NCBI GenBank assembly: GCA_037576215.1
Contig: JBANDB010000003.1
Location: 3,658,001-3,722,000 of the forward strand
DNA length: 64,000 nucleotides
Direction: 5' to 3'
Source: Armillaria gallica
Lineage: Eukaryota; Basidiomycota; Agaricomycetes; Agaricales; Physalacriaceae
The translations under genes were made by a program, and so were the position numbers. The notes beneath the pieces were generated by a model. That model did no database searches, had not been told where the DNA came from, and saw nothing but the letters and a program-made list of their open reading frames with translations. Position 1 is the stretch's first letter. Each line of letters opens with the position of its first letter. This document shows positions 6,546 through 41,200 of the stretch, in pieces.

Positions 6546-7246
6546 CTAGGAGCTCCAGCAAGAAGTGTTGTAGTACTTGCTATTGATGTAGTACTTGCTA
6601 TTGATATCGTCGGCATCGCAGTCACTCTCCCACGTCGCGCTGTCGATGTACTCTTCAAAGAGCGCACAGATGAATTGTTCGGCTTGTTCCTCCAGCGAGA
6701 AGGCTGTGATAGGAATGCATAAGATAAAGGTCAGACGAATTGTGTAGATTGGACTTACCCTGGCAAGAGTTGCACTTGTCGTGGGCTTCGCAGAGCTTCT
6801 TGCAGTCTACATCATGCGTGAGCAAGATTAAACTGGGTAGTCCAGGAGAGACGCTGACCGAGCTCAAAGGTATCCTTGGAGACATACCCAGTGGTAACGG
6901 GAGTGTACTTGCCCGACTTCCATCCGTTCCAGTCATTCTTGTTCTCGAATACGGCCTTCCACACACAGCTGGTGTCAGGCCATTGCTGGGGACACTGGAA
7001 TCCGCACTCGGACTAAACACAACATGTCAGATATGGGAACTGAAGGAACAAGGTGAAGCGTACATCAGTCAGGCAAGGGCAGTCTGAAGACACGTCGGGA
7101 GGACATTGCTTGCCGCTGCCGTACCACGTCCAGGCGGGCGTCCACGAGCTAGTAGGCGCAACGCTAGCATCATCGCGGGCAGTGATGATACTGGAGAACG
7201 CGGGGGCGGCGAGAGCGGTGAGGACAGCGAGGAACTTGATTGACAT
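6546..7246 (-). CDS. Cys/Trp-rich small secreted protein, family 2 copy A
   Basis: 180-aa predicted secreted protein, four exons: 7246-7064, 7012-6859, 6806-6759 and 6703-6546. Signal peptide MSIKFLAVLTALAAPAFSS, then a Trp-rich segment (SSWTPAWTWYGSGKQC) and a series of paired cysteines (DCPC, SECGFQC, DCKKLC, KCNSC) that probably form disulfides. I do not recognise the family. Copy B at 8070-8763 is divergently transcribed and nearly identical in layout. Copy A carries an in-frame 18-nt tandem duplication near its 3' end giving SKYYINSKYYN. Possible roles (effector, surface protein, inhibitor) are open. Confidence 0.85.
6569..6604 (-). repeat. 18-nt in-frame tandem duplication in exon 4
   Basis: Two perfect copies of an 18-nt unit, 6569-6586 and 6587-6604, inside the last exon of the family-2 copy A gene. 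It adds six codons relative to copy B, so the reading frame is kept. Confidence 0.9.
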
Positions 7247-13557: not shown

Positions 13558-14002
13558 GTGCCCCCAGCAGTGGCCGGACGCTAGCTGTGTGTGCACTGTG
13601 GAAGGCGGTATTCGAGAACAAGAATGGCTGGAACGGATGGAAATTGGGCAAGTATATTCCTGTTACCATTTGGTATGTCTCTAAGGATACTTTTGAGCTC
13701 GGTAAGCGCGCGTGTTACGGTTTGTGGGTTTTTCCGCTCACGACCTTCTAATCTAGACTGCAAGAAGCTCTGCGAGGCTCACGACAAGTGCAACTCTTGC
13801 CAGGGTATGTCAATTTTCTGTATTCGTTTGACCTTTATCTTACATATCCCCGTCAGCCTTCTCGCTTGAGGAACAAGCGGAGCAGTTCATTTGTGCGCTC
13901 TTTGAGGAGTACATTGATAGCGCGACGTGGGAGGGTGATTGTGAAGCTGAAGATGGCGCTAGCAAGTATTACAACACCTCTTGCTGGAACTCCAAGTCCT
14001 AG
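13558..14002 (+). pseudogene. 5'-truncated copy of secreted-protein family 2
   Basis: Matches exons 2-4 and both intervening introns of the gene at 8070-8763, ending with the same stop (14000-14002). Exon 1 with the signal peptide is missing, and the start of exon 2 has an insertion (Cys-Thr-Val region) and altered reading. Exons 3 and 4 are still open (DCKKLCEAHDKCNSC, then EEQAEQFICALFEEYIDSA). Without a start and secretion signal it is probably dead, though an upstream exon could have been acquired. Confidence 0.75.
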
Positions 14003-23968: not shown

Positions 23969-24407
23969 TGTTTATGATCGCCCAATATAAAGGTGTGTGC
24001 CCTTCGCAGAACTTTTCCTGCAGGATGGAAGAAAGAGATAGGGAATAGGAAGCACAGGCTTCGGCGCAACTGGAGAGAATTTCATTGCATGCCAGAGCTG
24101 AGTTTGGCGGCCGAACGAGGTCCCGGATGAGTGATGTTATGGTGGACTTGGTTTCCCTAGAGGAGCGAGAAGAGAACCAACTATACGGGAAGCCAGACGA
24201 TTGGGCAGCCAGGCCTCCACGGAAGGCTCGTTGGGTGGTAGGAGATGGGGCCGGGGAACGACTTGAAGAAGGGCCGGGAATAGCATTAACAGGTCGGTTC
24301 TTTGACTCGACGTTTATAGGGGAATTCGCGCTCGTGATAGCATCGTACGAAGGAGGCGCGTCTGCCGGCACAAGGTCGTCCGGGAAGGGAGGTTTGGGGT
24401 CAATCAT
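23189..24407 (-). CDS. Uncharacterised 389-aa protein with an ankyrin-like segment
   Basis: Two exons, 24407-23329 and 23279-23189 (49-nt intron with GTGAGT donor); reading through would stop at 23325. The N-terminal 90 residues are Pro/Ser-rich and disordered-looking (DAPPSYDAITS). Residues about 100-190 are helical, with EGHTPLYWAIINKP resembling one ankyrin repeat. The C-terminal half is charged, with ISQFQKRMRVGKEVEVEFIA and SLRIKSPGELVPTN. No known catalytic motif. Similar proteins with one ankyrin-like unit are seen in Agaricomycetes, but no function is known to me. The 308 bp up to the laccase 3' end (24408-24715) show nothing. Confidence 0.65.
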
Positions 24408-29900: not shown

Positions 29901-31099
29901 GAGGAAACTTCGTTTTAAGGTCAAGGGGGGAGATGGCGTTGTTTGGATACATCTGATGCCAATGCTGAACTGTGATCAACCTTGTAGTTAAGAACGACAG
30001 AATGGCACCCGACAGCACCCGGTTATCTAGTAGACGCTGTAAAATAAAGACTCCAAGAGTGACAGAAATATAATTTGAATTCAAAGATGCCATCTCTTAA
30101 CGTACCCTTTCAGTTCATCAGACGGCGGCTGCTAGGGAATGTGTCGGACCAGAGATTGCTTGCCGGATAAAATTATTCTGAGACGCTGAGAGAATGCCTT
30201 GTATGCTTCCAGCCATCAACTACACCCTGAAACGGAGCCTCGGAGAAGACTCCAGTGGAGTAGTGAGTCGGACTAGATGGTGGTAGGACTGATGTACATA
30301 TATCCAAGAATACGACGAATTGCATCTAATAATATGATGGACTGCACAAGGAAGTGGAATTAGAACGATCTTGCCAACTCCACGTACTTAGAATAGCGCT
30401 AGCATTCGAGGTACAAAGCAAGGCCATTCATGTCCGTCCTGTAATTACATGTTCTCGATCATGCGTATCTGGAGATTGGGTCCTGAGACTGGTAGCATCA
30501 GCACGTTGCGTACTTACATATTAAAAGGTCCTATGGACAAAGCGCTTGACAGGGAATCAAAATATACTTGCGGGAAAACGGACGGGAGATATTTTCATTT
30601 GGTTGGAGACGAAGGCGACACCTCGTCAGCAATGTACTGAGTAAGTAGATGGATGACAGAACGTAACATTGAAGTGAGAGCTTCAGTAATTACTTGGAAC
30701 GACGCAGAGGAGTAGACCTAAGTGATGTCCATCTTAAGTCTTATCACTGAACCCTCGAAAACCGACGACATGCAGCATCAGAAACCCGAAAACTTGAATC
30801 AGTTGTTCAGGTGAGCGTAATCGCGGGAGTCTGCACACTGTAGCATGCCAGCCAAAACAATCCTACCTCGCGTCATACTATCAGAGAAGCTATCCCGTTG
30901 AAGCCGTTATTAAGCGCACGAAGGTGATCATGGAACGTGTGACGAAAGAGAGCTGGAAGGATCGGCGTTGTCCGGTTCAAATGCTTGAAGACGGCACTCT
31001 CCGGAATCTCCCCCCGCACCCAGTAGTTTTCAAAGGAGCACTTCGTCATTGGAACTTGATACATCACAACTTCGTGGCTATGCGCACTCACTAGAAGCA
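26921..31099. other. 4.2-kb gene-poor region
   Basis: No gene model closes here. Open frames at 27369-27644 (plus), 29408-29761 and 29887-30093 (minus) have no recognised domain. A short frame near 27642 (MSELRKTNPEIVRKLVPLEL...) looks coding-like but ends after about 40 codons. The motif TCTGCCAT recurs several times between about 28753 and 28990. The region is AT-richer than its neighbours and may be old transposon DNA. Confidence 0.5.
28376..28395. repeat. (ATCTC)4 microsatellite
   Basis: Four exact pentanucleotide units in the gene-poor region. Confidence 0.85.
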
Positions 31100-36268: not shown

Positions 36269-37422
36269 ATGATCTGTTCGCGTACCGTATTTCGATGCTT
36301 CAAGACTCTGGAGCGATTGGGAGATCGTGTTACCGGCGCAGCTGGCCCGTTTTTTGTGGCATTAGCTATAATATTGATGAGCATTGGAACCGTGGCCTTC
36401 TGTGCGTGGCTTTCTCGTTCGTTTACCTGTCCTGATGCCGGCGCAGTCGACGTAATATCGCCTAGCCTCCCTTTCCCTCTTCTTGCGATACCTCTGTGTG
36501 TCCTTGTGACGGTCAACATGTGGACGCACTACTGGTGGGCGTGTACGGTCCCACCTGGCTTCATCGATGGTGATGTATCCCCAATACGAGGACTCTGGGC
36601 GGCCCAAAAGAAACGCGTAGGCGTCAGTGCAAGGACGACGAGGGCCGTGCAGACAAAATGCAGCAAATGTTCCATGATGAGGCCAGAACGCGCCCATCAT
36701 TGTCGTATATGCAACAGATGTGTACTAAAGTACGATCATCATTGTCCTGTGCGCTCCATGTGTCCTTTCTGCTACTCTATTATGCTAATCAGACAGTAGT
36801 GTTTGTTCCTCATTGCATTCATCCGTTTCACTGGTGCTGATGTCGCTTAGGGATCAACCAATGCGTAGGCCTCCATAACGAGCGCCATTTCGTCATGTTC
36901 ATGGCTTACCTCGTTATCGCCACGCTTGCTTTCGTTCTGTCGGGATACCCACAGCTCCTTGTTGCGCTTGGTGTGATGGGCATGCACGTTTCCTGGCCAT
37001 ACAGAGTGTCGTTGACATTTTATCTCCTCATCTACATCCTCTCTGCCGTGCTCTGCTTGGCAGTGGGTGTGATGTGCGCGTGGCACTTGGCTGCTATATC
37101 CGCTGCCGAGACGTCTGTTGAGTCGCAAGATCATGGCGTGTACAAACGCGTTGCGCGGAACCGGGGAGAGGAATTCGTTAATAGTTATGATTTAGGGTGA
37201 GTTTGATCATGCTCAGTCCAGCCTGTTTCTTACTTGTTGGTTAGCCGACGGAAAAACCTCAAGCTCTTCTTTAATCTCGAGGAGTATCCCATATATACGC
37301 TCATTATTCCTCTGAGGCTCCAACCGTATACTGACGGTCGTTCGTGGGCACGAAAGGATGGGTACGAAGAGCATGGTGGGGTCAGAAGAGGGGAAGAGTT
37401 GACGGATGATGATGATGAGTAA
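36269..37422 (+). CDS. DHHC palmitoyltransferase (S-acyltransferase)
   Basis: Four-pass membrane enzyme that palmitoylates cysteines. Exons 36269-36748, 36800 (one nucleotide, T), 36851-37196 and 37245-37422 give 334 aa. The Cys-rich domain reads [20 protein letters not shown] then [12 protein letters not shown] (DHHC at 156-159), and after the intron [17 protein letters not shown]. The invariant Trp after DHHCP needs TGG; the only way to keep frame and GT-AG rules is a 1-nt exon T at 36800 between introns of 51 and 50 nt, each with a CTRAY branch site. The C-terminal YTDGRSW is typical. The short form and [13 protein letters not shown] tail fit a Pfa3/Pfa4-type or ZDHHC16-like enzyme; exact orthology is unclear. 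Confidence 0.88.
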
Positions 37423-38258: not shown

Positions 38259-41200
38259 ATGAGCTGGATTGGAAAAGGCATTCGGCCGGGTGCGCCCTTG
38301 TCTTTCCGACAACAATGTCCTCGACGCGCTTTGTCATACTTCAATGTCGTGTACAGGCCGTCGTCACTCGTCCATGACCGCATACTGGAGCGACTGGACC
38401 ACCGTTTCTTCTCCTCGTCTGTTCCGACGTTCATTCACCGGACGCCATCCCTCAATAATCCTCGCTGGATCAACTCCAAACACAGACCAACGGACGTTCC
38501 ATCCGAGGGAGACGAGAAAGCGATAGAGGATGCAGAGGAACTCTCGGATGACCAGGTGCGGCTGCGTTCCGAGGATGACGAGAATCCTTCCGAAGGGTCA
38601 TCTTCCGAATCCTCTCCACCCGCTTCTTCGTCTTCTGACGGTCATGACTCTGGAGATTCAAGTCAACCTCCCTCATCGTCACGTCCTTCGTCGCCAGCAG
38701 CAATCGCGAAGCAATCTGTTCCCGAAATCTATCCCCAGGTCCTGGCTCTCCCCATCGTTCGTCGCCCGCTTTTCCCCGGTTTCTACAAGGCCGTCGTCGT
38801 TCGTAACCCCGAAGTAGTTGCAGCTATAAAAGAGATGATGAAGCGGGGACAGCCGTATCTTGGTGCGTTTCTCCTGAAGGACGAGAACATCGACAGTGAT
38901 GTCATTACGGACATCAATACTGTGCATCCTGTCGGTGTGTTCGCTCAGATAACCAGCGTGTTCAGTGCTGGGGGACAGGATGACAAGGAAGAAGGTCTGA
39001 CAGCCGTACTTTACCCTCATCGGAGGATAAAGATCACATCCCTCGTCAAGGCTGGTGGCGTTGCGACCGTCGAGCCGGTTGGAGAGGAAGACGTTCAAAC
39101 TGTGACTCCCCCGGCTACCCCAACCTCGGAAACAGCTCCTCAGACCCTTCATGGTGTGTATGCGCTCGTTCTGATTCCTTAGTGCTGGTCTCATGATGTG
39201 GCAGGACCGTTACAAACCTCTTTCTTGCACAACCATGCCATATCCATCGTCGAGGTCGAAAATCTTGTCACTCAGCCGTACAACAAAGACAATCAGTACA
39301 TACGCGCTTTCATGTCTGAAATCGTTTCGGTCTTCAAGGATATCGCCCAGTTGAACCCCCTCTTCCGTGATCAGATCACCAACTTTTCGATTAACCAGAT
39401 CGCATCCAATGTTTTCGATGAACCCGACAAGCTGGCAGACTTTGCTGCTGCAGTGTCAACGGGGGAAGTTGGCGAACTACAAGATGTCCTGGAGAGCTTG
39501 GTCGTCGAAGATCGCTTACGAAAAGCTCTACTGGTGTTGAAGAAGGAACTTATCAATGCCCAGCTTCAGAGCAAGCTCTCTCGGGATGTTGACAGCAAGA
39601 TTGCGAAGCGTCAAAGAGAGTACTACCTGATGGAACAGCTCAAGGGTATCAAGAAGGAGCTGGGCATGGAGTCAGACGGGAAGGACAAGCTTATTGAGAA
39701 GTTCAAAGAGCGAGCTGCATCTTTGAAAATGCCGGAGATTGTTAGAAAAGTATTTGACGAGGAGATCAATAAGCTTGCTGGCTTGGAACCAGCTGCCTCT
39801 GAGGCAAATGTGACCAGGAACTACTTGGAGTGGCTAACTCAAGTGCGCCATTTCTGCACTTACAATCTGTATCGTCGTTCTGAACCATTTCTTTAGATTC
39901 CATGGGGTCAGCACTCACCAGAGAACTATTCCATCTCGCACGCGCAAATTGTTCTAGATGAAGATCACTATGGCCTTAAGGACGTTAAAGATCGAATTTT
40001 GGAATTCCTTGCTGTTGGAAAGTTACGCGGCACAGTTGAAGGAAAGATCATCTGTCTCGTTGGACCTCCCGGTGTAGGAAAAACATCGATTGGAAAATCG
40101 ATATCGCGCGCGCTCAACAGGCAATTCTTCCGGTTCTCAGTTGGTGGCTTGACCGACGTTGCCGAGATTAAAGGACATCGTCGAACATATGTTGGGTATG
40201 TTTGTATTCCTTTTCTACCATTCGTTGACCTGATCTGGGTATTTTTCAGGGCACTCCCGGGAAAAATCATTCAGGCGCTCAAGCGTGTTGGAACAGAGAA
40301 CCCTCTTGTTCTCATTGATGAAGTTGACAAGATTGGCCGGGGTATCAACGGTGATCCTGCTAGTGCACTTCTGGAGATGTTGGATCCGGAACAAAACAAC
40401 AGCTTCTTAGACCACTAGTACGCAATTTACCTGTTGTTCTTTTGTTTTGCTAATGACCTCGCGAAGTATGGATGTCCCTGTTGACCTGTCGCGCGTCCTT
40501 TTCGTTTGCACAGGTAGGAGAATACCTTCTTTTTCAGTCGTCTTCGCTTAAAATGCTTGTTAGCCAATAACCTTGATACTATCCCGGCGCCTCTTCTTGA
40601 CCGTATGGAGGTCCTTGAAGTTAGCGGCTATGTTTCGGAGGAGAAAGCAGTCATTGCGGACAAATATCTTGGTCCTCAGGCCAGAGAGGCTTCTGGTCTC
40701 AAGAACGCCGACGTTCTCCTGGACCCTTCTGCTATCGACGTACTTATCAAGTACTACTGCCGGGAAAGCGGTGTTCGGAATTTAAAGAAGCATATTGAGA
40801 AGGTCAGTTATATGTCTGAGTCTCTACCGAGTTTACACTATCTTATGCTGGACCTTAGATATATCGGAAAGCAGCTTTGACGCTTGTTCAGGATCTTGGA
40901 GAAGAGGCCCTACCGGAGCCGCCTTTGGTCACATCCGCGTCTTCGTCGGCCGCAGAGTCCACTACCACTGTTGAGTCTCAAGAGCCTCCTAGTAACGAGC
41001 CATCAGTCGGTCCGGATCCCCCGGGGGAAAGGATGACAGTGACGACTCAGCAGCGCAAACCTATGTCCATACCTGACACAGTCCACGTCAGGATAACCCC
41101 GGAAACCCTCAAAGACTATGTTGGCCCGCCGATATATCAAAAGGATAGGATGTATGTGCATCCCCCTCCTCCTGGTGTAAGTACTGGTCTTGGATACCTC

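Follow-up and report, generated by a model that had tools for sequence, protein, structure and literature searches.

A predicted single-nucleotide exon in the active-site motif of a fungal DHHC palmitoyltransferase gene

A lone T at position 36800 appears to be a constitutive exon of its own in a gene predicted to encode a DHHC palmitoyltransferase; reading this from the sequence, we put the probability at about 0.86. The base would supply the first letter of the TGG codon that directly follows DHHCP, and it would lie between two introns of ordinary size. This was the interpretation offered by the original prediction, and it was supported by our analysis, in which all the other in-frame options enumerated scored far lower.

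Results

The DNA analyzed, a stretch of 64,000 nt referred to here as the window, comes from contig C3 of a genome that comprises 28 contigs and 86 Mb. The genome is probably that of a basidiomycete: its laccase scored 594-789 bits against a group of PDB laccases taken to be of basidiomycete origin (Coriolopsis, Trametes, Coprinopsis, and relatives) and at most 202 bits against the others among 60 listed of 88. When T36800 is counted and intron 3 is removed, the splice-joined translation of the DHHC gene is an open reading frame of 334 amino acids (Table 1). The predicted protein matches the Pfam domain PF01529 over positions 6-130 of 133 (E = 2.8e-31, 108.7 bits versus a curated cut-off of 28.7) and also matches human DHHC20 (5.7e-22). 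By sequence criteria, the gene product is a DHHC palmitoyltransferase with a nearly complete domain and a predicted palmitoyl transfer activity. When a second copy or allele of the gene was sought in the genome, the gene itself was the only one found. No related loci were present in viral contigs, and prokaryote genomes gave 10 pattern matches to the locus, none of them a relative.

Table 1. Predicted features of the DHHC gene (window positions) and the 3-nt exon of a CNNM-type gene
Feature	Position	Strand	Remarks
Exon 1	36269-36748	+	Open frame; start codon inferred; ends with CCT of DHHCP; PF01529 positions 6-42, E = 4.8e-8
Intron 1	36749-36799	+	51 nt, phase 0, GTGCGC...CAGTAG
Branch-site motif CTAAT, intron 1	36785-36789	+	A 36788, 11 nt upstream of acceptor G
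Two skipped CAGs, intron 1	36790-36796 (36790-36792, 36794-36796)	+	End 4 and 8 nt past branch A
Putative single-nucleotide exon T	36800	+	First base of TGG codon, Trp161
Intron 2	36801-36850	+	50 nt, phase 1, GTTTGT...GCTTAG
Branch-site motif CTGAT, intron 2	36837-36841	+	A 36840, 10 nt upstream of acceptor G
Exon 3	36851-37196	+	Rest of DHHC domain from GG of Trp codon; PF01529 positions 36-130
Intron 3	37197-37244	+	48 nt, GTGAGT...TTAG
Exon 4	37245-37422	+	YDLG...N.KLFFN tail; stop TAA at 37422
3-nt exon AGA, CNNM-type metal transporter gene	L027 1757-1759 (G000:C4:6586757-6586759)	-	Restores FGEIIPQ

Exon 1 closes with GAT CAT CAT TGT CCT (DHHCP), the CCT finishing at 36748, and the homologous sequence resumes at 36851, where exon 3 opens with GGATCAACC and the frame reads GG ATC AAC CAA TGC GTA GGC. 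Both edges had been placed at these positions in the original prediction, and the sequence and its open frames bear them out. They also bear out its assertion that a simple intron between the two edges breaks the frame: removal of 36749-36850 as one intron yields DHHCPGSTNA followed by a stop, a product of 165 amino acids. A single base stands between AG and GT in TAG-T-GTTTGT (36797-36806) and, as had been proposed, divides the 102 nt between exons 1 and 3 into one intron of 51 nt and one of 50 nt. Retention of intron 1 or of intron 2 brings in a stop 16 residues past DHHCP, and use of the upstream CAG (36796) as acceptor gives an immediate stop, by which this candidate acceptor was ruled out. 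Thus, if the T is skipped, either intron is kept, or CAG36796 is used, the protein ends within 16 residues of DHHCP.

We enumerated 30 single GT/GC-AG intervals whose removal leaves an open frame, with donors at 36650-36869 and acceptors as far as 36959; none produced DHHCPWINQ. Nor was this sequence obtained from any contiguous deletion with a left edge at 36700-36880 and a right edge up to 37000, whatever the splice sites. The left flank reads CCT and then G, and on the right a G precedes GGATC; neither edge supplies a T, which rules out a single non-canonical intron. The parse containing T36800 was the only one found to give DHHCPW followed by INQCVG, and the base is needed both for the in-frame exon join and for the conserved DHHC motif.

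The codon begun by T36800 would specify the Trp two residues past the catalytic Cys. In DHHC20, this residue (Trp158) is described as one of the most conserved and as lying at the head of the acyl cavity (PMC9006032, PMC9105814). At least three further DHHC genes occur in the genome, and Trp is found at this place in all three: DHHCPWINNC (contig C6), HHCPWVWNC (C4), and DHHCQWVNNC (C14). The earlier statement that the motif reads as in all homologues is correct for the Trp in the homologues compared but not for every residue, NNC of human DHHC20 and of the C6 paralogue being NQC in the T36800 gene. No intron position at the DHHC motif is shared with the three paralogues: the C6 gene has introns on either side of a 17-nt exon that ends in the D codon, the C4 gene has an intron inside the first H codon, and the C14 gene has no intron here. 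The 17-nt exon of the C6 paralogue is located directly upstream of its DHHC motif, between two introns of 47 nt (G000:C6 near 1598145-1598243, L007).

A small gene finder with its splice model was self-trained on 264 kb of this genome, made up of the window and a further 200 kb, with the DHHC gene's own introns absent from the training set. The resulting 326 predicted introns have a median length of 52 nt; 225 of them measure 48-54 nt and only 4 reach 90 nt or more. Their consensus is GTRNGT at the donor, CTRAY at the branch site, and YAG at the acceptor. Hence the proposed introns of 51 and 50 nt are indeed of the local size, and the CTRAY branch site that each was said to carry is present. 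Relative to the 326 predicted introns, introns 1, 2, and 3 fall at the 47th, 33rd, and 52nd percentiles of total score, and both introns flanking T36800 carry the genome's own splice signals. The donor GTGCGC recurs in 5/326 predicted introns and GTTTGT in 2/326, one of which belongs to the Xrn1 gene of the window. Genes for Lon, GMP synthase, and Xrn1 were identified in the window by Pfam (Xrn1 being modelled without its start), and all 33 of their modelled introns are 44-61 nt long, with GTGCGC and GTTTGT among the donors; these models share the finder's length prior.

Of 118 in-frame options scored, 88 with two introns and 30 with one, the T36800 pair ranked first, with 13.26, followed by 6.02 for the runner-up two-intron option; the best single intron scored -0.25. 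Charging each intron a penalty of 5.5 left the pair at 2.26 and the best single intron at -5.75. There are weak spots: intron 1 has an acceptor at the 9th percentile and a CAG directly upstream of it, and intron 2 has a donor at the 10th percentile. The gene finder, with 1-nt exons permitted, made no call for T36800 and chose a shortened gene starting from 36895 (score 9.2); the coding (codon) bias of exon 1 is weak (-4.2). Introns 1 and 2 gave no sign of an origin by tandem duplication, their alignment score being 1.5, whereas randomly paired introns averaged 1.53.

Three AGs follow the branch A at 36788, ending 4, 8, and 11 nt away, and the third is TAG36799. None of the 326 introns, which are themselves predictions from a model that partly learned the branch-distance rule, uses an AG within 8 nt of its best-scoring branch site. 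The AGs passed over in this set number 68 at 2-8 nt and 11 further away, and in 317/326 the acceptor is the nearest AG lying at least 9 nt past the branch site. By this rule TAG36799 is the predicted acceptor. Two controls with altered priors were run. Control A, in which branch distance was flat and length uniform over 38-130 nt, was retrained without the window from a starting model trained with it; an AG at 8 nt or less was then used in 3/89 introns with one CTRAY, and 14/220 introns were at least 90 nt long. Control B, with length and branch-distance priors flat and never updated, gave a noisy set, in which the distance was 8 nt or less in 15/116 and the length at least 90 nt in 38/143; this set weighs weakly against the T36800 reading. 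A strict CTRAY was found in just 21/33 introns of Lon, GMP synthase, and Xrn1, one of the 21 at 3 nt, which makes the branch-site rule a statistical one.

Chance occurrence was estimated by keeping the three outer signals (donor, branch site, and acceptor) and replacing the 78 nt inside them, with 20,000 trials for each kind of replacement. Dinucleotide shuffles gave AG-T-GT in 1,890 trials, a T-exon whose two introns each exceeded the 5th percentile in 105, and a T-exon as good as that observed (both introns at least equal to the weaker one seen) in 3. For natural genomic interiors, the corresponding numbers were 430, 11, and 0.

With exons down to one base permitted, the finder predicted five internal exons no longer than 9 nt, none of them of one base, in genes scoring above 10 across the 264 kb. 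The 3-nt exon AGA of a CNNM-type metal transporter gene (Table 1) is convincing. It is flanked by an intron of 49 nt (score 10.68) and one of 53 nt (score 9.35), both taken from the automatic model, and its inclusion raises the Pfam score of the gene from 83.0 to 96.0 bits; among the matches listed, two of three CNNM4 chains read FGEILPQ and one reads FGAILPQ. The same gene model, hand-corrected around one exon and with two hand-set introns that score low (2.4 and 1.12), also contains a 10-nt exon and a hand-set 21-nt exon. Elsewhere on contig C4 (G000:C4:6500001-6550000, L019-L023 joined), two inverted paralogues of 22-23 predicted exons each have in common a 9-nt exon (29988-29996, plus strand; 40943-40951, minus strand) and several exons of 13-18 nt; the plus-strand copy was domain-scanned and is a GH115 glycosidase. 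Two consecutive 5-nt exons predicted in one gene of contig C3 (L014-L018 joined, 24026-24030 and 24082-24086, plus strand) may be false calls. We also noted an inverted repeat (6655-6809 / 13754-13905) with 155 aligned bases that are 85% identical. Open frames read its two stretches in different frames, which suggests a dispersed repeat.

Discussion

We infer that the DHHC gene is transcribed and spliced in the modelled form, probably as follows. By intron definition, in which splice sites are paired across a short intron, the fungal spliceosome would see 36749-36799 and 36801-36850 each as an ordinary intron close to 50 nt long. The intron 1 acceptor and the intron 2 donor, one base apart, presumably could not be bound simultaneously, so that the two introns would be removed sequentially. 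If intron 1 leaves first, the donor of intron 2 would be presented as CTT|GTTTGT, which is slightly stronger (a score of 3.21 compared with 2.64 before removal); this gain is too small to fix the order of removal. The spliced product would have the TGG codon, and with it the Trp, restored.

An assembly or sequencing indel would offer another account, in which the true genome carries an extra T at an exon edge and a single intron of about 102 nt. Such an intron would be rare yet possible, as lengths of 90 nt or more in 4/326 predicted introns, and in 14/220 under the uniform length prior, indicate. To create TGG, however, the missing base must fall exactly at an exon edge, and there is no long homopolymer at either one. 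The AG-T-GT with two typical introns would then be a coincidence of the kind met in 3 of 20,000 shuffles and in 0 of 20,000 natural interiors. Moreover, the Pfam domains of Lon, GMP synthase, and Xrn1 in the window, admittedly a small sample, cross exon joins with no frame break. We therefore regard an indel as improbable. Somewhat less probable again is a different splice pattern that loses the Trp or adds residues, or a decayed copy that makes a truncated protein. The 30 single-intron in-frame options provide candidates for the former (a GC donor, for example, gives CPVRINQC, and GT36762 gives CPVRSMWINQC), and the weak coding bias of exon 1 also speaks in their favor. Against these readings, the best single intron falls far below the T36800 pair in model score, the three alternatives tested reach only 96.3, 97.2, and 91.6 Pfam bits, a cost of 11-17, and the remaining gene is open and was found in one copy alone.

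The abutting introns and two-step removal also resemble stwintrons, described as two adjoining fungal introns that leave by two consecutive reactions (PMC9024468). In a stwintron, though, nested introns depart as one contiguous unit and zero exonic bases remain, which is incompatible with the DHHC frame: removal of the whole interval shifts it, and 0 of the contiguous deletions tested gave DHHCPWINQ. A stwintron is hardly credible here, and we consider it ruled out. A single-nucleotide exon at T36800 is thus the reading with which we compare the cases already in print.

The original prediction cited a plant APC11 gene as precedent. A one-nucleotide exon is indeed reported for Arabidopsis APC11 (PMC4674806), but APC11 is not the sole case, since a one-nucleotide microexon is described alongside it for plant VPS55 (PMC8831610) and another exon of this size for Fusarium CYP621A (PMC12940212), supported there by 18 listed reads, one of them with intron sequence. 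The novelty of such an exon was therefore overstated. In the available portion of PMC12940212, the Fusarium case is counted as the second example known and the first fungal one; VPS55 is not mentioned in that portion, although it had appeared earlier in PMC8831610. Among the matches listed in searches of the open literature, there was no nuclear one-nucleotide exon of a basidiomycete.

The CYP621A exon (PMC12940212) is likewise fungal and likewise consists of one AG/GT-flanked base inside a conserved-motif codon, joining out-of-phase exons. It is described for an ascomycete P450 as AG-G-GT, in an interval of 139 nt in F. graminearum, as the central base of a Gly codon, and with reads, whereas T36800 is AG-T-GT, lies in 102 nt, would be the first base of a Trp codon, belongs probably to a basidiomycete, and is a prediction from sequence. 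In Arabidopsis APC11 (PMC4674806), the one-base exon is also needed for the frame, and a similar combined model of intron definition and sequential removal of two introns has been proposed; there the interval is 422 nt, the base is A, and the evidence comprises cDNA and reporter constructs. The VPS55 exon (PMC8831610) resembles T36800 as a one-base exon missed by annotation. It differs in being from plants and in having RNA-seq and RT-PCR support, and some lineages are reported to have transcripts both with and without the microexon.

Gene finders will break genes of this type, as the finder used here did. Such exons may be predictable, as our results suggest, once the rules that a genome follows at its branch sites and acceptors have been learned. 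A broader notion, which we put forward as speculative and rather doubtful, is that single-nucleotide exons recur in such intron-dense fungal genomes as the extreme of a graded range of very small exons (1, 3, 9, 13, and 17 nt predicted here) tolerated by intron definition; mis-splicing directly behind the catalytic Cys truncates the enzyme, so the output of active palmitoyltransferase would directly read splicing fidelity. With an interval shorter than those of APC11 and F. graminearum CYP621A, the locus would be a small and convenient substrate on which to ask whether splicing is made sequential by intron definition. If expressed as we propose, the DHHC gene would be an independent addition, probably from another phylum of fungi, to the few genes known to have one-nucleotide exons.
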